Positions 1 through 61,847 of a stretch of 61,847 bases of DNA are shown here, in pieces. Source of the stretch: a virus. Within the stretch, counting starts at the first letter, position 1. The number at the start of each line of letters is the position of its first letter. Made by a program: the position numbers and the translations under genes. The stretch lies in IMG/VR virus record IMGVR_UViG_3300033153_001680, positions 1 to 61,847 of that record. One strand, 5' to 3'. The notes below the pieces were generated by a model. That model did no database searches, had not been told where the DNA came from, and saw only the letters and a list, made by a program, of their open reading frames with translations.

Positions 1-85
1 CCTCAGTTGCTTCTTTAATAGTAAACTCTTTCTTGGACCATTTGTTGTCGTGCTGGTCTACCCAGTGTAGATCTGTTTCCTTCAT
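1..85 (-). CDS. Cys-X-X repeat protein, N-terminal part (runs off the left edge)
   Basis: The ATG at 83-85 opens with [16 protein letters not shown] and runs off the left edge. A ribosome site (CAGGAGAAC) lies just upstream. The same 82 bases end the window at 61766-61847, where the frame continues into an array with Cys at every third residue, so this is most likely the start of that gene on a circular map. The segment is the shared WVD-type domain of this phage's Cys-X-X family. The Cys array of the copy at 141-463 is in the same frame as this start with no stop between, because the stop found at the equivalent place near 60519 is a GGA codon here. Function unknown. Confidence 0.6.
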   Translation of the reverse strand, partial: MKETDLHWVDQHDNKWSKKEFTIKEATE

Positions 86-552
86 GATTCTGTTCTCCTG
101 TTGAATTAGTTTGGGTACTCCTTTTTCTTTCCCTCTGCGTTTGGTGCAGTCATGGCATATACGGCAGTAGTGGCAGTCGGTGCAGTTGGTGCAGATATGG
201 CAGTTGGTGCAGATACGGCAGTTGGCACAGTTGGTGCAGTCGGCACAGTTGGTGCAGTCGGTGCAGATACGGCAGTTGGTGCAGTAGTGGCAGTCGGTGC
301 AGTTGGTGCAGATATGGCAGTTGGTGCAGATACGGCAGTAGTGGCAGTCGGTGCAGTCGGTGCAGTTGGTGCAGAAGTGGCAGTTGGTGCAGTAGTGGCA
401 GTTGGTGCAGTAGTGGCAGTTGGTGCAGTTGGCGCAGTTGGTGCAGTTGGTGCAGTCAACTAGGGACTCACTAGCCTCAGTTGCTTCTTTAATAGTAAAC
501 TCTTTCTTGGACCATTTGTTGTCGTGCTGGTCTACCCAGTGTAGATCTTCAT
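86..552 (-). pseudogene. Degenerate Cys-X-X repeat gene copy
   Basis: This copy has the usual parts: a ribosome site, an ATG at 550-552, the WVD-domain sequence (about 464-545) and a Cys-X-X array (about 146-454). Compared with the intact leader, 7 bases are missing right after ATGAAG. The ATG therefore reads MKIYTG and stops, while the domain and array are in another frame without an ATG, GTG or TTG start. At its 3' end the array frame does not stop but runs in frame into the next gene copy (start at 85). I read this as a decayed or recombined copy, though an assembly error in the repeats is possible. Confidence 0.6.
146..454 (-). repeat. 9-bp tandem repeat array (Cys-X-X coding)
   Basis: Imperfect tandem repeats of a 9-bp unit whose + strand form is GTTGGTGCA, with variants such as GTAGTGGCA and ATACGGCAG. 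Read on the - strand in the family frame they encode Cys-Thr-Asn, Cys-His-Tyr, Cys-Arg-Ile and similar triplets. Because the unit is a multiple of three without stops, the other frames also stay open and give meaningless Thr-Ala-Pro or Val-Gly-Ala runs. Confidence 0.9.
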
Positions 553-594
553 GATTCTGTTCTCCTGTTGAATTAGTTTGGATATGCAGTGGAA

Positions 595-974: not shown

Positions 975-1274
975 TCATAAGTCTTCTCCTTGGTCGTTAG
1001 GTGCCCACTCTTGAGCACTGGGGTACTCCGTCCTATGGCGTGTCGTCTTATGGGGTAGCCTCTGGTAACTTGGGTTACAGGTGCGGCATACCCCATTATC
1101 GGTTAAAACTCCACAGTCTTTACAATGGGGGATGTCCTCAATGTTGTGTATGCCCATTAACCGAAGTGCCCTCCTTAGTACTCTCTTGGATGGGTGCAGC
1201 ACATGTTGTGCATTGGGGACGCTGCTTAACTCCTGGTTGTCCAATATAACTACTGTACTAATCTGCTTGCTCAT
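975..1274 (-). CDS. Small protein with zinc-ribbon-like Cys pairs
   Basis: A 99-residue protein beginning MSKQISTVVILDNQEL. The start at 1274 follows the stop of the preceding gene by two bases, with GAGAT as a weak ribosome site. Residues around 50-66 hold two Cys pairs, CKDC and CRTC, about ten residues apart, the spacing of a small zinc ribbon. This suggests a metal-bound nucleic-acid or protein contact, but the family is not recognised. It belongs to a run of very small - strand genes (975-2029) that looks like an early accessory cluster. Confidence 0.6.
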   Translation of the reverse strand: MSKQISTVVILDNQELSSVPNAQHVLHPSKRVLRRALRLMGIHNIEDIPHCKDCGVLTDNGVCRTCNPSYQRLPHKTTRHRTEYPSAQEWAPNDQGEDL

Positions 1275-1276
1275 GG

Positions 1277-1456
1277 TTATATCTCGTCGTTAAAGTAAAA
1301 CAGAGGGCCGTTGCCTGAGTAGATAACTGTTTCGTCTTCGTCATTGAGGTTAGCTGTAAACCTGCAATAGGGGTTTTCAGAGTCGCACCCTAAGCTCTTT
1401 ACCTTGTGAAGGTCCATCAGTTCTTTAAGGTCTTCCATAAAAGTGTTGCTCTTCAT
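1277..1456 (-). CDS. Small acidic hypothetical protein, 59 residues
   Basis: An ATG at 1456 is preceded by AAGGAGTACAAT, a strong ribosome site, and opens a 59-residue frame beginning MKSNTFMEDLKELMDLHK and ending YFNDEI. The protein is acidic, has two Cys (GCDSENPYC) and no membrane segment. It overlaps the 3' end of the preceding membrane-protein gene by 32 bases and ends two bases before the next start, a typical translationally coupled phage arrangement. The family is not recognised. Confidence 0.6.
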   Translation of the reverse strand: MKSNTFMEDLKELMDLHKVKSLGCDSENPYCRFTANLNDEDETVIYSGNGPLFYFNDEI

Positions 1457-1556
1457 ATTGTACTCCTTGGATTACTGGTCCCGGATCAACTGGACAACAG
1501 ATTATAGCAGCCATTGATAATGCGACTAGTACCACAAGTATTAACCACCCGTTCAT
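1425..1556 (-). CDS. Small membrane protein, 43 residues
   Basis: The ATG at 1556 follows AGAGGACAAGC and gives a 43-residue protein. It starts MNGWLILVVLVALSMAAIICC: one N-terminal hydrophobic segment (residues 4-20) ending in two Cys, then a short polar tail. This could be a simple single-pass protein or a lipoprotein-like peptide; the residues before the Cys do not form a clean lipobox. It overlaps the next gene in another frame. It could be a small lysis or membrane-modifying protein, but nothing here proves it. Confidence 0.5.
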   Translation of the reverse strand: MNGWLILVVLVALSMAAIICCPVDPGPVIQGVQYEEQHFYGRP

Positions 1557-1621
1557 GTGCTTGTCCTCTGGTTTAAATGATAGTTGGCTGGCTCATCAGC
1601 GAACAGGTACCGCCTGCTCGG

Positions 1622-1648
1622 ATACTGCGGACGCATTGTCCGCAGTAT
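1622..1648 (-). terminator. Perfect 11-bp hairpin after the 1655-2029 gene
   Basis: ATACTGCGGAC and GTCCGCAGTAT are exact inverted copies around a 5-base loop (GCATT), starting 7 bases beyond the stop of the 1655-2029 gene. There is no T run after it on the - strand, so it may act as a transcript-stabilising or weak termination structure rather than a classic terminator. Confidence 0.55.
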
Positions 1649-1654
1649 ACTGGA

Positions 1655-2029
1655 TCAGCAGTCTTGCGCAAGGAACCCGCAGTCCATTCTTATCAGGGAG
1701 GTTTCCGATTGTAGCCACTCGAAAAAAGTACCCTCTTGTTCGGAGCTCAAGTCATCGTTGGCACCTGCAAGCTCATCAGCTTCGTCTGGATCAATGCCCA
1801 CGTCCTCAAAAGAAAGGCCTCTGTCCTCTAGGTACCCAAGAATGGAGCTGTATTCTGTCCATTCGCAAGAAATAGCGCAAACGTCCAGCTCGGTTTCTTC
1901 TCCAATCTCATCTTCTAAGCACTCTAAGTACTCAAAGAGAGCAGTAAGAGCGTCACGGGAGAAGTTATCTTTGTACTGCGAAAGAGAGAAAGCTGAAATG
2001 AAATCATTTACTAATACTGTGGTTTTCAT
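1655..2029 (-). CDS. Conserved small phage protein (DFISAF type)
   Basis: A 124-residue acidic protein starting MKTTVLVNDFISAF at 2029, with AGAGGACC as ribosome site; an upstream in-frame start lacks one. The pattern FSxxALxxLFxYLEcLEDEIGEETELDVCAISCE resembles a hypothetical protein common in phages of Proteobacteria, as far as I remember; its role is not established. The C-terminal part (LGYLEDRGLSFEDVG) looks helical. It lies in the small-gene early cluster and is followed by a hairpin at 1622-1648. Confidence is high that it is a gene and low on any function. Confidence 0.75.
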   Translation of the reverse strand: MKTTVLVNDFISAFSLSQYKDNFSRDALTALFEYLECLEDEIGEETELDVCAISCEWTEYSSILGYLEDRGLSFEDVGIDPDEADELAGANDDLSSEQEGTFFEWLQSETSLIRMDCGFLAQDC

Positions 2030-2162
2030 AGTGGTCCTCTTTGATAGTGTAGGTTCTGCACTTCCCATCGGGATGCGCTTGACTTGTTAATGTAGCTTCT
2101 TGTCCTAATGCCAACCTTGCGTACCAGTCGGCATCGTTTATGCCAAGTGTGAGTCCCCTGTC
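2004..2162 (-). pseudogene. Open frame without a start, probably a 3' gene remnant
   Basis: Between the Cys-rich gene and the 1655-2029 gene, one frame reads GINDADWYARLALGQEA and later GKCRTYTIKEDHYEN before stopping at 2004. It looks like real protein (mixed composition, few rare codons) but has no ATG, GTG or TTG start; an in-frame TAA at 2163-2165 closes it upstream. It may be the tail of a gene whose 5' end was replaced when the Cys-rich gene was inserted. It overlaps the start of the next gene by 26 bases. Confidence 0.3.
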
Positions 2163-2722
2163 TTAATAACCAGGGGACACGACTCGCTGAGTCTGCTGCC
2201 CTTGCCTGCACAGTCGGTGCAGTGCCAACAGCCGGTGCAGTCGGTGCAGTCGGTGCAGTGCCAACAGCCGGTGCAGTCGGTGCAGTCGGTGCAGTGCCAA
2301 CAGCCGGTGCAGCCGGTGCAGTCGGTGCAGTCGGCGCAGCCTTGGCAGCCTTGGCAGCCTTGGCAGTCGGCGCAGCCTTGGCAGCCTTGGCAGCCTTGGC
2401 AGCCTTGGCAGTTGGTGCAGTTGGTGCAGTTGGTGCAGTTGGTGCAGTTGGTGCAGTTGGTGCAGTCACGGCAGATATGGCAGCCGGTGCAGTCATGGCA
2501 TATACGGCAGTTGGCGCAGATACGGCAGTAGTGGCAGTTGGTGCAGTCATGGCAGCCGGTGCAGTCGGTGCAGTCGGTGCAGTACCAGCAGTTGGTGCAG
2601 TTGGTACAGTTGGTGCAGTAGACTAGGGACTCACTAGCCTCGGTTGCTTCTTCAGTATTAAACCTTTTCTTGTCCCACTTATTGCCGTTCTGGTCTACCC
2701 AGTGTAGCTCTGTTTCCTTCAC
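2138..2722 (-). CDS. Cys-X-X tripeptide-repeat protein, intact copy
   Basis: A 194-residue protein starting with GTG at 2722 behind AAGGAGAAC. Residues 1-35 form a small domain (ETELHWVDQNGNKW then [13 protein letters not shown]). Residues 36-173 are about 46 consecutive Cys-X-X triplets, mainly [18 protein letters not shown] and CWH, and a short tail follows (KGSRLSESC). A Cys at every third residue could bind many metal ions, or stack as a Cys ladder in a regular helix or solenoid; both are inference. I recall Cys-every-third repeats in other phage proteins, some under misleading names, but cannot check here. This is the only copy with start, domain, array and stop all in one frame. Confidence 0.75.
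   Translation of the reverse strand: MKETELHWVDQNGNKWDKKRFNTEEATEASESLVYCTNCTNCTNCWYCTDCTDCTGCHDCTNCHYCRICANCRICHDCTGCHICRDCTNCTNCTNCTNCTNCTNCQGCQGCQGCQGCADCQGCQGCQGCADCTDCTGCTGCWHCTDCTDCTGCWHCTDCTDCTGCWHCTDCAGKGSRLSESCPLVIKTGDSHLA
2204..2617 (-). repeat. 9-bp tandem array in the intact Cys-X-X gene
   Basis: About 46 units of 9 bp. Sub-blocks are duplicated as longer units: a 36-bp block around GTGCCAACAGCCGGTGCAG is repeated three times at the 3' end (2218-2320), and CTTGGCAGC units cluster at 2340-2405. Such higher-order copies indicate growth by slippage or unequal recombination. Confidence 0.9.
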
Positions 2723-2819
2723 GATACTGTTCTCCTTTGATAGGTTTTCTCCCTTGTAACCAGGGGAGAGCCGGAGTTCTACTGAACCCGGTTATACGAG
2801 GTAAACTTCACACGATTTC

Positions 2820-2864: not shown

Positions 2865-2997
2865 TGCTTATGTTAATAAATCTAATATGTTAATAGGACT
2901 ATGTTGTTTTTACGTTGTTATTAACTCGTCACTCTTTGGGGACTCATGGCGGGGACTCTTCGGGCTCTTTTGGCCGGTGGTTCACAGAGTTAAGTGA

Positions 2998-3157
2998 TCC
3001 ACTGAAGAGTATCCGCTAAAAACCCTATACTGTGTATATTTATTTCCTCTCTTTTTCTCTCTTTTTCTCTCTTTTTCCTCATCCTCTATATAAAGTTAGG
3101 CTATCCTAACAAAAAAGAACCTTCTTATATACTATTTACTCTTTACTCTTCAGTGGA
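2998..3157. repeat. 14-bp inverted repeat flanking an AT-rich pyrimidine tract
   Basis: TCCACTGAAGAGTA (2998-3011) and its exact inverse TACTCTTCAGTGGA (3144-3157) enclose 132 bases. Inside are three direct copies of CTCTCTTTTT (3047-3076), a GTTAGG-CTAT-CCTAAC hairpin and several TATATA stretches. There is no convincing gene here. The layout of an easily melted tract between inverted arms would suit a replication origin or a promoter-control region; this is inference only. Confidence 0.6.
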
Positions 3158-3935: not shown

Positions 3936-3964
3936 ATAGTACTAAACTCTGTTCCTCTTGTCAA
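3936..3964 (-). promoter_or_regulatory. Sigma70-type promoter, copy 1
   Basis: On the - strand TTGACA (3959-3964) is a perfect -35 box, with a 17-base spacer and TACTAT (3936-3941) as -10. It sits about 35 bases upstream of the start at 3902. The surrounding roughly 60 bases are nearly identical to the copy at 4243-4271. Confidence 0.75.
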
Positions 3965-3992: not shown

Positions 3993-4208
3993 TCAGTGCT
4001 CGTCTTTCTGGCCGTTATACTTAGTAGCTTCAGAGTTAAAAAGCAAATCTGTACAGAATGTGCAGTTCGCACAGTATGCGTAGTTGTAGCACTCTCCGCA
4101 GTTAAATAGGGCTTTACTCTGTTTTTCAGCCTCTTCCTTAGTATACAAGTCCATGCTCCCGCTGTTGTTTCTACCATCAAACCGCACTTTACCAGCACTC
4201 TGAATCAT
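3993..4208 (-). CDS. Short Cys-X-X family member, 71 residues
   Basis: The start at 4208 (MIQSAGKVRFDGRNN) is chosen because GGGAGAAATATC precedes it and because the longer frame to 4271 would run into the promoter. The protein has a small domain (VRFDGRNNSGSMDLYTKEEA), then a short Cys run, CGECYNYAYCANCTFC, in which most Cys are three residues apart, and a polar tail. It looks like a divergent, short relative of the 2138-2722 protein with a mini-array. This supports the idea that the domain-plus-Cys-array design is a family trait rather than random repeat expansion. Function unknown. Confidence 0.65.
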   Translation of the reverse strand: MIQSAGKVRFDGRNNSGSMDLYTKEEAEKQSKALFNCGECYNYAYCANCTFCTDLLFNSEATKYNGQKDEH

Positions 4209-4242: not shown

Positions 4243-4271
4243 ATAGTACTAAACTCTGTTCCTCTTGTCAA
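4243..4271 (-). promoter_or_regulatory. Sigma70-type promoter, copy 2
   Basis: TTGACA (4266-4271 on the - strand), 17-base spacer, TACTAT (4243-4248). It is the same as the promoter at 3936-3964, including the spacer and the leader up to the ribosome site. It drives the 3993-4208 gene. Confidence 0.75.
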
Positions 4272-4590: not shown

Positions 4591-4711
4591 CAGTGAATCA
4601 GATGACACAAATTTTGTAACCACAGTGAATCAGATGACACAAATTTTGTAACCACAGTGAATCAGATGACACAAATTTTGTAACCACAGTGAATCAGATG
4701 ACACGTAACCC
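4591..4711. repeat. 32-bp iterons in the divergent control region
   Basis: Three exact tandem copies of a 32-bp unit (4591-4622, 4623-4654, 4655-4686) and a fourth lacking 9 bases (4687-4711). Each full unit contains ACAAA-T-TTTGT, an odd palindrome, and GAATCAGATGACAC. A related half-site, CACAAAAATTTG, follows near 4725. They lie about 70-190 bases upstream of the strong rightward promoter. Iterons of this kind bind a replication initiator or a transcription factor; which one applies is not known. Confidence 0.85.
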
Positions 4712-39149: not shown

Positions 39150-40727
39150 TTACTCTTCTGTGTATATCACACACTCAGTGGTCAACAGCATCCCTGCTAC
39201 TGATGCTGCGTTAGACACTGCTGCTTTAGTCACTTTAACCGGGTCCACAATTTCGGTGGCACTCACGTCTTCCAGTTCCCCGGTTTGAGCATTGTACACC
39301 GAGTTACCACAGTCCTGAAGAACTCTCTCCACTACGACGGCTCCTTCTACTCCAGAGTTTACTGCTATCTGGCACAGTGGTGCAGACAGAGACCCCTGCA
39401 ATAGCTTATACCCTAAGTGCTCATCAGAAGTTTCCCAGCATAAGCCCCCATGCATTTTAGCTGCACACCCTAGGAGAGCTGTGCCTCCTCCGGGAACCAC
39501 TCCTTCCTCAACGGCTGATCGTGTGGCGTTCAGAGCATCATCCATCCGGTCTTTCAGCTCACCAAGCTCCACCTCGGTCTGAGCCCCCACCTGGATAGAC
39601 ACAACGCCCCCCAGGAGCCTCGCCAGACGCTTTTGCAGCCACTCCCTGTCAACATCCATCGTCGCTTCGCTGAGGGCTTTTCGGATAACCTCAGACCTTT
39701 GAGCAACCTCTTTTTTGCTGCTGCTGTTGTCGTTTGTCAGGGTCATTGAATCTTTGGTCACAACGACTTTACTCACAGACCCAAGAACGCCCCAAGAGAT
39801 ATCTTTAACTCCATCTCAGGCACTGTGGCTCAGTACCCGCCCACCTACTATACTGGACAAATCCCTCAGTACTTCCAGCATCCGTTCCCCGAAATATGGA
39901 GCATTAACCGCCACTGTTTGTACCTTTCCCTGAATCATGTTTACCACCATTCCGGTTATGGCATCACCGTCAACATCCTCAGCGATAACCAGGAGGGGGA
40001 CACCTCCTTCAGACGCATCAGACAGCAGGTCTTGTATGTCCTGAAACCTTGAGATCTTAAAGTCACACATCAGGACTTTAGCATTCTTCAGCTCAGTCAC
40101 CATGTTCTCCCGGTCAGTGGAGAAGTAAGGAGATATGTACCCGTTATCAAAGTGGAGGCCCTTAAAGACTTCTAAGTACGATTTTCCGGTGTGAGAAGTT
40201 CCTACGTTGATGACTCCGTCAGCTCCGGCCTCCTTCATGGCCTCTGCGATCAGCATTCCTGTGGGTATGTCATTGTTCGACGCTATGGAGGCTATTTGCG
40301 CCACCTCTTCAATGCTGGAGACCGGGGATGCCATGTCAGTCAAGAGGTCCAGTACCTCGCTCAGAGCTGCGTCGATGCCCCGTTTCAGCTCAGTGGGGTT
40401 AGCTCCGGCGGTTACCAGCTTTACCCCCTGGTTATAGATCGTGTTAGCCAGAACCGTTGAAGTAGTAGTCCCGTCGCCCACAAGAGCAGAGGTGTTCGAA
40501 GCTGCGCCTCTTAAAACTTTGACTCCCAGGTTCTCTATGGGGTCAGGCAAGTGGACCTCTTTAGCAACCGATACACCATCCTTTGTTATAGTCACCCCTT
40601 GGGCTCTATCCAGGAGAACATTTCTCCCACAGGGTCCCAGGGTCGCTGACACTGCTTTTGTCAGTAGGTTAGCCCCGGCCTTCAGGGACTGGCGAGCTTC
40701 GTTTCCGAATTTGATAGTAGTGTTCAT
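39150..40727 (-). pseudogene. groEL: GroEL-like chaperonin gene with one in-frame TGA
   Basis: One continuous frame of 526 codons from 40727, interrupted once by TGA at 39816-39818. The first part (303 residues) has chaperonin blocks LTKAVSATLGPCGRNVLLD, GDGTTTSTVLAN and AGANPTELKRGIDAA; the second has DALNATRSAVEEGVVPGGG near its middle. Aligned by eye with E. coli GroEL the TGA falls exactly on a Gly without any gap, so a single GGA-to-TGA change explains it. The full product would be a 525-residue folding chamber subunit; the truncated one lacks the rest of the apical domain and the C-terminal equatorial part. No groES-like gene is visible. It could be a real nonsense mutation, a sequencing error or read-through. 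Confidence 0.8.
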
Positions 40728-46748: not shown

Positions 46749-46998
46749 AACTCAAGCCTCCCAGCTCTTTTTGTTCCCTTTTCACTCTCAGAGTATTGTA
46801 CTTTGCGTGAACTCGGTACAGTAGCTGAGTTCCCTTGTTCTGCAAGTGCAACTCCTTTAAAAGCCAGAGGAGTTCTTCTTCAGTGAGGTCAGCTTTGTAG
46901 ATGCCCCTCTGGATATCTTTCACACTGCGCCCAACTAATATCTTCACTCTTAACGAGTCAGTAGTAATCCTCTTGAATACTGATGGTTCTGTTATCAT
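46738..46998 (-). CDS. Small protein after the polymerase gene
   Basis: An 86-residue basic protein (MITEPSVFKRITTDSLRVKI), overlapping the polymerase stop by 4 bases and the next gene by 11, so it is translated with them. Helical (LTEEELLWLLKELHLQNKG), no motifs. Possibly a polymerase accessory factor, but only position supports that. Confidence 0.55.
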   Translation of the reverse strand: MITEPSVFKRITTDSLRVKILVGRSVKDIQRGIYKADLTEEELLWLLKELHLQNKGTQLLYRVHAKYNTLRVKREQKELGGLSYEK

Positions 46999-49460
46999 TT
47001 CTTGTACCTCTTGCTTATGTATCCTTTAGCCTCAACTGGCAGACCTGGAACAAAGTCAACGTCACATAAGGCAGAGTTGAACTTCTCCAGAGAGCTTCCC
47101 GTAGCATCCTCATCGGACATCAGCCCAATAGCTTCATCATGAACAGTGCCTATGAGGGTAACTTCAGGCATACGCTCCCTAACATTGATCAGCCCACGCC
47201 CCATGATTTCTCGGGCTAAACCCTGGACTGCATTTTCAGTGATGCGACCAGGGATCAGTGGAACTCTCGTCCATTTTCGAGTTAGAGGGTTCACCCCCAT
47301 GTGGACCACTGTAGCCACCTTCCACATACGCTTGAACTTAGGTCTTGCTCGGCCCTCTACTGAAGGAGAGCAACAGTATATACTTTTTCCTGAAGGAAGC
47401 CTCATTGCTCGGTCCTCTACTGAAGGAGAGCAATAGTATATACTTTTTCCTGAAGGAAGTCTCATTGCTAACCAGGAGACTCCGTTCACCTTAGCTGTTC
47501 CGAAGGTTATGCTGCCAAAGGTCTGTCTGTCCCCCGAGATTACCGCCCGAATAGCAGCTTTCTTCAGCCCTTTCCAGCACTGGGCCACTTTATAATATTT
47601 CTCTCTGTATGCACCTACCGCTTTTTTCGCCTCCTTTTCCGTAAGGTATATACCAAAGTTCTTAGCAGAAGTCTGGAATGTTTCTGCACCCATGCCGAAG
47701 CCACAGCCAAGAACAATGACTTTTCCCACACTCCTCTGACGGATTGACTCAGGGTCCTCAGCATCATATCCGTCCTTGATATCCTTGTAGGACCGGTTAA
47801 ACTTAGATGAAGCCATATCGATGTACTGGTCAAAGCCTTCTCGAAAGCCCTGGAGGGTCTCCTCATCACCAGCAACCCAGGCCAGTACCCGGTTCTCTAT
47901 GGAGCTGTAGTCAGATACAATAAGCTTCTGGCCTTCAGGAGCTTTGATTACAGACCTCAAGAGGGACTTTGAAACTCCTATAGGGTCTTCCATCGGGGAC
48001 TGTTCCACAAACTCCAGGATATCCTCCTCTGGTTGCTTAGACTGAGCCCTGGGGAAATTCTGGGGCTGCACCCCCCTTCCTGCCCACCGTCCCGTACCCG
48101 CTCCGTGGTAACACAGAGAGTCATGAACCCTGTGGTCCTCAGCTTTTCCAGGAACCCTGTAGTCAGCCATCTTCCGGTATTTTGCGGTAGATGATTTTCC
48201 GAGCTTCTGACACAGGGTCAGCACTTCTTCAACAACTTTGGGCAGCTTGACTTCGGGATCGTTAAGGAGATCCTGTATGTAGGCTCCCTGGCAACTCTGA
48301 ATAGGGAACCCCTGAGTGTCGCAAAAGTCTTTTATCCGGGCGTACTGGAACGGTGAGGTAACGTGTGCTTTTTTATTAGCCCTCTTGTGTAAGTCGTACA
48401 CCGTTTGATTACATGACTTCAGGCTCTTCTTAACCAGCTTCTTGATCTTTGCCATTTCGGATGTACTATCACCCAGGGGGGTTCCAAGGAGCATTGCCAT
48501 CACTTCACGGTACAGCGTAGGACTGAATAGGGTCTTAGTTGACGCGGGGCTGTCCTCGTAGATGTCTTCCAGGGACCTTGCCCCCTCTTCAAGTACCTCA
48601 TGTATGTCAGTAATCCTGATAAGATCTTTTCCTTCAACGGGTTCCCTATAGTCACTGACAAGGCGCGATACTTTTTCCAGAGATTCATCCCGATACATCT
48701 CCAGTCTTCTGCGGAGGTCTCCCGAGTCTTTAGCAGCTCTTTTCGTTATCCGGGACAACTCTTTTTTACCTTCGTCCAGGGCCAGCTCAATTCTACTGAG
48801 TATAGAAGTTACCTCTAGCTCATCAATAGGCAACCCCTCGTGGTTCATTTGAGCAGTTATCTTCCAGATCTCGTGCTCCACTGGAATAAGCTCTTGTCGG
48901 GGCAGCTTCTGGACTACTGATCTCATAGCAGCTACGTCTATAAGGCAGTACTCTTTCAGCTCCTCATAAACTACTTTATACTCCTCTGAGAACATGTCTG
49001 GCTTCTGGTGCCCTACGAGCTGCCTGCCGTGCTTAACAGGCTGAGGAGTACAGCACTTCTTAATCAGCCTTGCACCAGCAGACTTCTGTACTGGTGCTCC
49101 CAGGGCTTCGCCTGCGCCCCCCAGAGAAGCCGGGAGAGAGAAGGTCATGCACAGGGCCATAGAGTCCACTACCTGATCCCAGACAATCTCAGGCCACCCA
49201 AAGGCTTCGACACACAGCATGTTCCACACCCTCATGTCAAACGCTGCGTTGTGAGCGTACACCTTCCCCCCACTGGATACGTGGTCAAGAACTCCCCAGG
49301 TCAGGTTTTGACCTTGCTCCCACATCTGTACTGGTCCGTCCCAAAAAGCATAGGCCATGCATATAGGTTCAGTGGACCCGTCCTGTAAGTACCTCATGGA
49401 GCCATGCTTCTTTATTTCTACTTCACTGTATGTCTCAAAGTCAATAAACAGTGCTTTCAT
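46995..49460 (-). CDS. Family A DNA polymerase with 3'-5' exonuclease
   Basis: An 821-residue replicative polymerase of the phage family A type. Exonuclease motifs: IDFETYSE (Exo I, residues about 6-13), AHNAAFDMRVW (Exo II), and CLIDVAAM (Exo III). Polymerase motifs: SDYSSIENRVLAW (A), RSVGKVIVLGCGFGMG (B, carrying the Arg and Lys), and VHDEAIG (C). No 5'-nuclease domain, as usual for this group. Near the C-terminus a 20-residue stretch (AMRLPSGKSIYYCSPSVEDR) is duplicated in tandem, described separately. ATG at 49460 behind GAGGACACC. Confidence 0.9.
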   Translation of the reverse strand: MKALFIDFETYSEVEIKKHGSMRYLQDGSTEPICMAYAFWDGPVQMWEQGQNLTWGVLDHVSSGGKVYAHNAAFDMRVWNMLCVEAFGWPEIVWDQVVDSMALCMTFSLPASLGGAGEALGAPVQKSAGARLIKKCCTPQPVKHGRQLVGHQKPDMFSEEYKVVYEELKEYCLIDVAAMRSVVQKLPRQELIPVEHEIWKITAQMNHEGLPIDELEVTSILSRIELALDEGKKELSRITKRAAKDSGDLRRRLEMYRDESLEKVSRLVSDYREPVEGKDLIRITDIHEVLEEGARSLEDIYEDSPASTKTLFSPTLYREVMAMLLGTPLGDSTSEMAKIKKLVKKSLKSCNQTVYDLHKRANKKAHVTSPFQYARIKDFCDTQGFPIQSCQGAYIQDLLNDPEVKLPKVVEEVLTLCQKLGKSSTAKYRKMADYRVPGKAEDHRVHDSLCYHGAGTGRWAGRGVQPQNFPRAQSKQPEEDILEFVEQSPMEDPIGVSKSLLRSVIKAPEGQKLIVSDYSSIENRVLAWVAGDEETLQGFREGFDQYIDMASSKFNRSYKDIKDGYDAEDPESIRQRSVGKVIVLGCGFGMGAETFQTSAKNFGIYLTEKEAKKAVGAYREKYYKVAQCWKGLKKAAIRAVISGDRQTFGSITFGTAKVNGVSWLAMRLPSGKSIYYCSPSVEDRAMRLPSGKSIYCCSPSVEGRARPKFKRMWKVATVVHMGVNPLTRKWTRVPLIPGRITENAVQGLAREIMGRGLINVRERMPEVTLIGTVHDEAIGLMSDEDATGSSLEKFNSALCDVDFVPGLPVEAKGYISKRYKK
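47348..47467 (-). repeat. 60-bp tandem duplication in the polymerase gene
   Basis: Bases 47348-47407 and 47408-47467 match at 57 of 60 positions. The duplication is in frame and adds 20 residues (second copy AMRLPSGKSIYCCSPSVEGR) between polymerase motifs B and C. The high identity makes it recent. Confidence 0.9.
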
Positions 49461-55970: not shown

Positions 55971-56624
55971 TCACTCCCATATGATATGTGCGTAAGGAGC
56001 CTTTTTAACTGCCTCCCTGTAGGTCACCCCTGATCCAGTGATCTTAAGAATATTCAAGGAGTCCATTCGAGGAAGCTCTATTAGACCCTCATTCCCCCGG
56101 ATATCCAAGGATTTAAGATAGTATGAAGGTGCCCCTAGGGAGTTTATAGAACAGCTCATCAGTACGGCCTTAGCACAGTACTCAAGGTTCCCTAGATCTG
56201 CGAAGTCTATCTTGTTACCTGTTAAGTCTACAGAGTGTACTGCTCCGGGGGCTCTTGGTACTGCGGTAATGCCATTGTAAGACAGGTCCACAGTCCAGGG
56301 GGACAGGTTTTCAGGCAAGTCCTCGCCAAACATGCTACAATTACTCGCAATCAAGTGGAGTACGTTAAGATTTGGTATATCAGTCAGGGCCTTGTTTCCG
56401 CTGACGTTCAGCGCATTTAAAGAATACAAGGGCTTCAGACTCTTTAAGCTCTCGTCAGTAAGGAGGTTATCAGACAAATCCAAGTGGTGAATTTTAGGAA
56501 GGTCCTTTAACCAGGGGGGAATCTCCCGCAGACTCATACTGGATAAGTCCACGTACCCGCTGCTTACTAGCTCTAAATTGTTGTACCTTGAGCCAAAATG
56601 CTCACCTAATTTATTTATATTCAT
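55971..56624 (-). CDS. Leucine-rich-repeat protein
   Basis: A 217-residue protein with about eight leucine-rich repeats of 20-24 residues: LPKIHHLDLSDNLLTDESLK, LYSLNALNVSGNKALTDIP, TVDLSYNGITAVP, VHSVDLTGNKIDF, YLKSLDIRGNEGLIELP. The repeat consensus LxxLxLSxNxL predicts a curved solenoid that binds a protein partner. LRR proteins are more usual in bacterial effectors and eukaryotes than in phage replication operons, so acquisition by transfer and a host-targeting role are plausible but unproven. ATG at 56624 behind AACAGGAGAAGTAACC. Confidence 0.8.
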   Translation of the reverse strand: MNINKLGEHFGSRYNNLELVSSGYVDLSSMSLREIPPWLKDLPKIHHLDLSDNLLTDESLKSLKPLYSLNALNVSGNKALTDIPNLNVLHLIASNCSMFGEDLPENLSPWTVDLSYNGITAVPRAPGAVHSVDLTGNKIDFADLGNLEYCAKAVLMSCSINSLGAPSYYLKSLDIRGNEGLIELPRMDSLNILKITGSGVTYREAVKKAPYAHIIWE

Positions 56625-60518: not shown

Positions 60519-61085
60519 TCATTTTTCTTCCCCTCTGCGTTTGGTGCAGCCGGTGCAGTCGGTGCAGTTGGTGCAGTTGGTGCAGTCACAGCAGTTGGCG
60601 CAGTCACGGCAGTAGTGGCAGTCGGTGCAGTCATGGCATATACGGCAGTTGGTGCAGTCACGGCAGTCATGGCAGTTGGTGCAGTCATGGCATATACGGC
60701 AGTTGGCGCAGATACGGCAGTTGGCGCAGATACGGCAGTTGGTGCAGTAGTGGCAGTTGGTGCAGTAGTGGCAGTTGGTGCAGTAGGGGCAGTTGGCGCA
60801 GTTGGTGCAGTTGGCGCAGTTGGTGCAGTCACGGCAGTCATGGCAGTTGGTGCAGTCATGGCAGTTGGTGCAGTTGGCGCAGTTGGTGCAGTTGGTGCAG
60901 TTGGTGCAGTAGTGGCAGTTGGTGCAGTTGGTGCAGTTGGTGCAGTTGGTGCAGTTGGTGCAGTTGGTGCAGTTGGTGCAGTTGGTGCAGTCAACTAGGG
61001 ACTCACTAGCCTCAGTTGCTTCTTTAATAGTAAACTCTTTCTTGGACCATTTGTTGTCGTGCTGGTCTACCCAGTGTAGATCCTC
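60519..61085 (-). pseudogene. Cys-X-X gene copy C, fused in an odd frame
   Basis: The WVD domain sequence ([16 protein letters not shown], 61001-61085) and its array (60546-60989, stop at 60519 after CTKRRGEEK) are in one frame. Upstream there is no start of its own: the domain is joined to the array of copy B in a frame where that array reads Thr-Ala-Pro, back to an ATG at 61427. Compared with complete leaders, the bases between start codon and GATCTAC are replaced by array sequence. Either recombination between arrays removed the start, or the assembly is wrong here. Confidence 0.5.
60546..60989 (-). repeat. 9-bp tandem array of copy C
   Basis: About 49 units of the 9-bp repeat, with CTN blocks (60860-60989) and mixed CHD, CRI, CAN, CHY triplets to the left. 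Long stretches match arrays A, B and 1, so short reads could not place them uniquely. Confidence 0.9.
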
Positions 61086-61523
61086 TGCGTTTGGTGCAGT
61101 TGGTGCAGTTGGTGCAGTCACGGCAGTAGTGGCAGTCGGTGCAGTCACGGCATATACGGCAGTTGGTGCAGTCACGGCAGTCAGGGCAGTTGGTGCAGTC
61201 ATGGCAGTTGGTGCAGTCATGGCATATACGGCAGTTGGCGCAGATACGGCAGTTGGTGCAGTAGTGGCAGTTGGTGCAGTAGTGGCAGTTGGTGCAGTAG
61301 TGGCAGTTGGTGCAGTTGGCGCAGTTGGTGCAGTTGGTGCAGTTGGTGCAGTAGTGGCAGTTGGTGCAGTTGGTGCAGTTGGTGCAGTTGGTGCAGTTGG
61401 TGCAGTTGGCGCAGTAGTGGCAGTCAACTAGGGACTCACTAGCCTCAGTTGCTTCTTTAATAGTAAACTCTTTCTTGGACCATTTGTTGTCGTGCTGGTC
61501 TACCCAGTGTAGATCTGTTTCCT
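61024..61523 (-). pseudogene. Cys-X-X gene copy B, without its own start
   Basis: Leader ([15 protein letters not shown], 61430-61523) and array (61096-61422) are in frame. Instead of a start codon the leader is preceded by a TGC ACC array unit, so it reads CT-KETDLHWVDQ: an array-to-domain fusion. At its other end the array frame runs out of frame through leader C and stops at 61024. If the single missing base near 61552 in array A were restored, copies A and B would form one longer protein with two WVD domains and two arrays. Confidence 0.5.
61096..61422 (-). repeat. 9-bp tandem array of copy B
   Basis: About 36 units of the 9-bp repeat, same unit types as the other arrays, continuous in the Cys frame from leader B. 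Confidence 0.9.
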
Positions 61524-61527
61524 TGGT

Positions 61528-61745
61528 GCAGTAGTGGCAGTTGGTGCAGTAGGGCAGTTGGCGCAGTTGGTGCAGTTGGCGCAGTTGGTGCAGCCGGTGC
61601 AGTAGTGGCAGTTGGTGCAGTAGTGGCAGTTGGTGCAGTTGGCGCAGTTGGTGCAGTAGTGGCAGTTGGTGCAGCCGGTGCAGTAGTGGCAGTTGGTGCA
61701 GTAGTGGCAGTTGGTGCAGTCGGTGCAGTTGGTGCAGTAGTGGCA
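61528..61745 (-). repeat. 9-bp tandem array of copy A
   Basis: About 24 units of the 9-bp repeat, with one 8-base unit near 61552 that breaks the frame. Confidence 0.9.
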
Positions 61746-61765
61746 GTCAACTAGGGACTCACTAG

Positions 61766-61847
61766 CCTCAGTTGCTTCTTTAATAGTAAACTCTTTCTTG
61801 GACCATTTGTTGTCGTGCTGGTCTACCCAGTGTAGATCTGTTTCCTT
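61766..61847. repeat. 82-base terminal direct repeat of the window
   Basis: Bases 61766-61847 equal bases 1-82 exactly. This suggests a circularly closing assembly. The same sequence with small changes is also inside the window (about 476-549, 61009-61082 and 61440-61523), so the overlap could also be a repeat-induced join. Confidence 0.9.

Follow-up and report, generated by a model that had tools for sequence, protein, structure and literature searches.

A phage gene with 46 consecutive Cys-x-x triplets: coding frame, family and a proposed capped solenoid fold

The virus record IMGVR_UViG_3300033153_001680 (IMG/VR; all 61,847 nt were analysed and are called the window here) carries on its minus strand, at 2138-2722, a gene whose predicted product has cysteine at every third residue over most of its length. 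Such an array raises two questions: whether the Cys frame is the frame that is translated and, if it is, what kind of protein it encodes. The initial annotation, made from the sequence alone, had suggested that the cysteines cluster metal, form the ladder of a solenoid or drive assembly in response to redox state. The data favour the Cys frame as the protein frame and, with about even confidence, we read the product as a capped β-solenoid rod with a Cys core and about 12 residues per coil, which is probably made early and may serve as an interaction or decoy rod against a host factor.

The array gene and its reading frame

The layout of the gene is as first described, a 35-residue domain followed by 46 Cys-x-x triplets (Table 1). 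Translation would start at a GTG codon (2722-2720), the array opens at residue 36, and Cys is present at residues 36, 39 and so on to 171, that is in 46/46 triplets. In total 47/194 residues are Cys (24.2%), which bears out the estimate of about a quarter of the chain. The two X residues had been described as restricted to TN, TD, TG, QG, HD, RI, HY and WH; these pairs are present but the set was not complete, as WY, HI, AN, AD and RD also occur. At the DNA level the array consists of 9-nt units, and at one end a 36-nt unit (CTDCTDCTGCWH) is present in 3.4 nearly perfect copies (2211-2331). When the window was simulated 20 times with a first-order Markov model, the longest in-phase Cys run was 2-4, and it is 3 in positions 4300-60400 of the window itself; the window-wide maximum is 50, in a paralog at a contig end.

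The remaining frames across the array are also largely open, the repeat being free of stops in most frames, and therefore an open frame alone proves nothing. Three observations nevertheless point to the Cys frame as the one in use. It is this frame that has the start codon, the Shine-Dalgarno sequence and a conserved N-terminal domain (N-cap). Additionally, the residues are kept while the codons vary from phage to phage: in a set of 114 arrays, described below, Cys is encoded by TGC or TGT, all four Thr codons are used, and Asn (AAC/AAT) and Asp (GAC/GAT) vary likewise. Finally, the closest relative found, L314 (a 23.7-kb contig with a TerL 83% identical to that of the window), has an intact array of 26 triplets (25 Cys) in the syntenic place, on the same strand and beside the same 150-aa neighbour gene. 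Stops or random frames in related phages had been named as the outcome that would speak against translation. These were not found, and the frame is intact both in L314 and in dozens of unrelated phages.

Flavobacterium phage FL-1 has the full N-terminal domain in frame with an array in the Cys frame, but its annotators took another frame. The annotated protein APZ82901.1, with an APVAPI repeat, is the wrong frame of a Cys-triplet gene (L277:2987-3331; FL-1, KY421186.2 26567-26911). In the same phage a WHTC..HCRAGW-type domain, which follows the array, is split by a frameshift. At another locus (L016:4788-5408) the order is reversed, with a WHxC..HC.AGW-type domain N-terminal and the Cys array C-terminal, whereas elsewhere the domain comes after the array.

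The family, its core position and its shared caps

The window protein matches the profile of phrog_15341 (PHROGs v4; E = 1.1e-31, 111 bits), a family of unknown function. A profile search and a (C-x-x)n pattern search had been proposed as checks, with recurrence in unrelated phages as the sign of a defined system. Using tblastn together with peptide-pattern and TGY-pattern scans, we found at least 114 arrays in at least 82 loci, nearly all of them viral (overlapping loci from one contig are counted separately in this tally). The arrays do recur in unrelated phages. Matches to the TGY pattern were mostly other repeats read out of frame, the real ones being at least 34/118 viral and at least 3/117 genome loci. 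Named members are the Campylobacter firehammerviruses, Vibrio 1.238 (a schitovirus) and Flavobacterium FL-1, and these phrog_15341 relatives have the same kind of array as the window protein. The Campylobacter phages also have the same N-cap, and the window array is longer than theirs. In 16 aligned N-caps, N14, W16, A26, L33 and C36 are invariant. There are several N-cap types; profile comparison shows that WVD-NxN-KW and WITD-NGNR are homologous (E = 1.4e-8), but no homology was demonstrated between two others, A5 and A6. Pfam and NCBIfam scans gave nothing usable, and no description of such Cys arrays in phages was found in the open-licence literature. The family is already known as an unannotated one; what is new is the proposal that it belongs among the phage capped solenoids and has a core made wholly of cysteine.

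Across the 114-array set the mean Cys content of the core position is 97.9%. The core position is not Cys in 70/3060 triplets. Most of these replacements are to Ser (33 triplets), with 16 to Leu, 9 to Gly and 3 to Ala; Tyr (2) and Arg (1) are rare, and His, Asp and Glu account for 0/70 replacements. Arg and Tyr are the products of the two residue-changing single transitions in TGY, yet they are found in only one and two cases. The presence of Ser, Leu, Gly and Ala, and never of His, Asp or Glu, is more in line with a tightly packed interior than with metal ligands. In 69% of cases the second X position (X2) has one of the turn-prone residues Asn, Asp and Gly; the first (X1) is Thr or Ser in 49% and Asn, Asp or Gly in 6%. 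In 54 arrays with little self-repeat, aromatic/His pairs are in modest excess at a distance of four triplets (70 vs 49 expected, ratio 1.42, z 3.8), and no other lag from 1 to 10 triplets stands out. No clear period was seen in the spacing of the core residues that are not Cys.

The case for a solenoid is strongest where end domains (C-caps) are exchanged with other repeat proteins. Four relatives (L025, L027, L078 and L116) end in the domain GSRN..YW..VQVxCGCFxGxLxxF. This GSRN..CGCF cap also ends VxGxA-repeat proteins of Bacillus, Ruminococcus, Chryseobacterium and Bacteroides phages, some of which are annotated as hexapeptide-repeat transferases. In the relative L284 the C-terminal domain is ..IGCQxHxxxxWxxFSDE.., and in Caulobacter, Acinetobacter and Rheinheimera phages this domain is found at the end of pentapeptide-repeat proteins; the IGCQ..W..FSDE cap is also found on a VxGxA-repeat protein of a Vibrio phage. 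End domains of one kind are thus shared by three sorts of repeat, and two of these sorts are from known solenoid repeat classes. The phage pentapeptide-repeat proteins (Caulobacter RapA, Rheinheimera Barba and that of Acinetobacter) have an N-terminal segment, a solenoid array and the C-cap that L284 has. They differ from the window protein in that their repeat is of five residues, A[DN]LxG, with no Cys core, whereas the window protein keeps a three-residue period throughout, has no Pfam match and is without the cap. The VxGxA proteins are hexapeptide-like (labels include 'putative acyltransferase' and 'LpxD-like') and have a six-residue repeat; the window protein does not have their GSRN..CGCF cap.

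Other repeat genes were seen at related loci. A pentapeptide gene is located near the array in locus L023. Directly downstream of the Cys-array gene of L314 there is a gene with seven-residue GDCSDLR repeats (L314:1-300, minus strand), which is cut by the contig end. In Vibrio phage 1.034 (MG592418.1; L312:907-1689) the DNA of a VxGxA gene is annotated as containing CRISPR spacers and is probably just a coding repeat.

The proposed fold and its alternatives

Structure prediction had been suggested as a check. AlphaFold2 (AF2), run on an alignment of the window protein with 16 relatives, agrees with a solenoid, a fold that it tends to over-predict (see below). The predicted local distance difference test score (pLDDT) is 77 overall, 88-94 for N-cap residues 1-30 and mostly 80-91 for residues 70-160. 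The N-cap is modelled as a hairpin and helix, and every third residue (X1) is assigned as a bridge. In a Foldseek search the PDB matches were limited to weak right-handed β-helices, and the best BFVD matches (ChoanoV1, Campylobacter IBB35 and poxvirus proteins) have a root-mean-square deviation >10. A PDB sequence match to 8zxl ('spindlefibril/axialfibril') was rejected as compositional, since its alignment consists of single-residue stretches that score negatively; no relevant paper on it was found in the open-licence literature. By repeat sequence (phmmer) the nearest solved match is an insect antifreeze protein. In the beetle antifreeze protein each coil has 12 residues, with side chains directed inward at 2, 5, 8 and 11, that is at every third residue (PMC8038014). 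This inward spacing, the 12-residue coil and the Cys-rich core of the insect (Tenebrio/Dorcus) antifreeze proteins, PF02420, would apply to the phage protein as well. The insect proteins, however, have two Cys per coil and a TCT ice face and are secreted, whereas the phage protein would have four Cys per coil, does not have the TCT motif and is leaderless. The likeness is one of geometry.

The solenoid that we propose would be a leaderless, presumably cytosolic rod which starts at the 35-residue N-cap (hairpin and helix). Each C-x-x triplet would form one short side, with Cys directed inward; the wall would be built by X1 (Thr, Ser, Lys, Ile or Arg) and the corner of the coil by X2 (Asn, Asp or Gly). 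About four triplets (12 residues) would make up one coil and the 46 triplets would therefore give about 11 coils. Packed thiols would stand in for the usual hydrophobic core, and the length of the rod would change by duplication of the 9- and 36-nt units. Made early, the rod might present a rigid interaction or decoy surface to a host factor, by analogy with the pentapeptide-repeat rods. Of the ideas put forward at the outset the Cys-ladder solenoid is thus the one favoured, on account of the core tolerance, the turn-formers at X2, the 12-residue correlation and the C-caps shared by relatives, and overall the earlier interpretation is partly supported, in its solenoid part.

Several points weigh against this fold. 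To our knowledge there is no solved solenoid with Cys at every inward position in a reducing compartment. The window protein has no C-cap domain and ends in a short tail, so the cap argument reaches it by way of its family. The 12-residue signal is modest and could come partly from old 36-nt duplications. Finally, AF2 is known to over-predict solenoids (PMC11795689).

Among the alternatives, a metallothionein-like store survives best, although we consider it unlikely. The array would bind many Zn, Cu or Fe ions, either robbing host or defence enzymes of metal or supplying phage enzymes with it; in a variant of this explanation the metal is bound inside a solenoid, or the chain folds only around metal. 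CxxC is the commonest metal-binding spacing, and a leaderless protein with 47 thiols in 194 residues, from a family with Cys at about 98% of core positions, would suit such a role. Metallothioneins are also small and very Cys-rich with CxxC spacing, but the window protein is unlike them in its perfect three-residue period over 46 units and in a family core that tolerates Leu, Ser, Gly and Ala. Swaps to other ligands would be expected in a metal store, if not strictly required, and His, Asp and Glu are absent from the replacements. Additionally, there are rods of the same architecture without a Cys core, and a Pfam search with the window protein yields no family that binds metal.

A redox-responsive rod or polymer, whose thiols would stay reduced inside the cell and pair into disulfides, within or between molecules, once oxidation or lysis sets in, seems distinctly improbable. 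It would be in keeping with the likeness to the insect antifreeze proteins, whose coil is of a similar type, has disulfides across it and needs oxidation to fold (PMC8038014). However, the charged N-terminus of the window protein shows no sign of a signal peptide, and the Ser and Leu replacements are often single, which would leave unpaired Cys. We give equally little weight to a new solenoid class with an all-thiol ladder, free or metal-loaded, in which the rod of the capped solenoids would have been replaced so as to act as a metal-thiolate or redox wire or sponge in the infected cell.

It is likewise doubtful that the protein is fibrous or disordered and of low complexity, as a polyproline II bundle or an unfolded chain, with the AF2 solenoid as an artefact. 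Repeats of three to four residues are classed as fibrous (class II; PMC11795689), which together with the over-prediction by AF2 would be consistent with this, and the AF2 model of L027, which has a C-cap, is poor (pLDDT 64). Against this, Pro takes up just 7 of all the X positions, and a Gly-x-x register is absent. The strong positional preferences, the inward-type substitutions, the conserved N-cap and the swapping of caps with known solenoid repeats also argue for a folded rod.

A DNA-level repeat with a role in recombination or packaging, or an assembly artefact, in which the protein frame is incidental, is very improbable. The 9- and 36-nt units, the open alternative frames and the location of the contig ends in related repeats with an 82-bp overlap would fit, but the same residues are encoded by different codons across phages, the start, Shine-Dalgarno sequence and N-cap are in the Cys frame, unrelated phages keep that frame, and the flanks of 2138-2722 are unique on both sides. 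Least credible of all is an ice-binding protein of the insect antifreeze type, which weak PF02420 matches and some Vibrio and Campylobacter phage annotations ('insect antifreeze protein') would favour: PF02420 does not match the window gene, a paralog segment and L025 score 15.2 and 13.4 bits against a cut-off of 36.5, and the Thr-Cys-Thr motif is found at 1/2832 positions in the 114-array set. The TCT motif being absent, such labels in phage records should not be read as function.

Genomic context and wider meaning

The minus-strand block that contains the array gene starts after two promoter-like sites (Table 1); in this region there are 12 promoter-like sites compared with 7.0 expected. The segment 4241-4306 is 83% identical in L314, where by reading there are three tandem copies. 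The block is divergent from the terminase-portal genes and, if the contig ends are joined, runs toward the DNA polymerase and other minus-strand genes. The promoter-like sites and the gene order suggest early expression. In the named phages the relatives are located among small genes or replication/nucleotide genes, and one Campylobacter copy adjoins the portal gene. From the gene context and the likeness to pentapeptide rods we infer, tentatively, that the protein could be a cytosolic interaction rod that acts on a host target, a role that is possible rather than probable.

Between them, the contig ends (1-557 and 60519-61847) carry at least four further copies of N-cap and array, most of them rearranged. 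The ends have 82 bp in common, inside the repeat, and joining them yields one more copy with a proper ATG. Because the contig ends fall within the repeat, part of the damage to these copies may be assembly error, and the end copies have therefore not been used as support.

Table 1. Coordinates of the array gene, its parts, nearby features and related copies in the window
Feature	Position	Strand	Remarks
Cys-triplet array gene	2138..2722	-	194 aa, GTG start; phrog_15341, E = 1.1e-31
N-cap, 35 residues, predicted β-hairpin and helix	2618..2722	-	alignment and AF2
46 consecutive Cys-x-x triplets	2210..2617	-	includes the copies of the 36-nt unit
Short C-terminal tail and stop, no recognised domain	2138..2209	-	AF2 pLDDT <50 from residue 173
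Shine-Dalgarno sequence AAAGGAGA	2731..2738	-	8 nt before GTG; read from the sequence
Conserved neighbour gene, 150 aa	3450..3902	-	same neighbour in L314 at 1225-1674, minus strand
Second promoter-like site, TTGACA-17-TACTAT, before the 150-aa gene	3936..3964	-	motif scan
Short relative, similar N-cap and few Cys-x-x triplets	3993..4208	-	phrog_15341, E = 2.4e-6
Promoter-like site, TTGACA-17-TACTAT, at the head of the leftward block	4243..4271	-	motif scan
N-cap start of a paralog, continuing at 61847 if ends are joined	1..85	-	82-bp end overlap
Paralog, array and N-cap	106..557	-	7-nt deletion just past ATG puts array out of frame with start
Paralog, N-cap and long array, ending CTKRRGEEK	60519..61082	-	no start codon of its own
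Paralog, N-cap and array, fused to the array before it on the minus strand	61084..61527	-	no start of its own
Rest of the paralog begun at 1..85, N-cap and array	61500..61847	-	frame lost mid-array

Several other features of the window were observed. Between the leftward and rightward gene blocks, at 4591-4704, there are 3.6 perfect 32-bp direct repeats (CAGTGAATCAGATGACACAAATTTTGTAACCA), possibly an origin or control region, and ACAAATTTTGTAAC elements are also present in the matching intergenic region of L314. In both phages the long non-coding stretch that lies upstream of the array gene contains repeated ACTCTTCG/CGAAGAGT motifs (window 2930-3010; L314:880-1160). Another repeat-solenoid gene shares the strand of the Cys array and encodes a leucine-rich repeat protein of 217 aa (55971-56624, minus strand; LRR_4, E = 4e-8). 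The gene for a GroEL-like chaperonin (39150-40727, minus strand; PF00118 in both halves) has a premature in-frame stop between two open reading frames. In the family A DNA polymerase gene (46995-49460) a 60-bp tandem duplication at 47345-47469 adds 20 residues (MRLPSGKSIYYCSPSVEDRA).

The analysis corrects the 'insect antifreeze' labels in phage records and one wrong-frame annotation, and gene callers can miss genes of this kind. If the solenoid is correct, the all-cysteine three-residue repeat would be a third interchangeable phage rod beside the pentapeptide and hexapeptide-like rods. It would add a class of solenoid and provide a test of thiol-core folding in the reducing cytosol. It would also suggest that capped solenoid proteins have an as yet unstudied role in common during phage infection.
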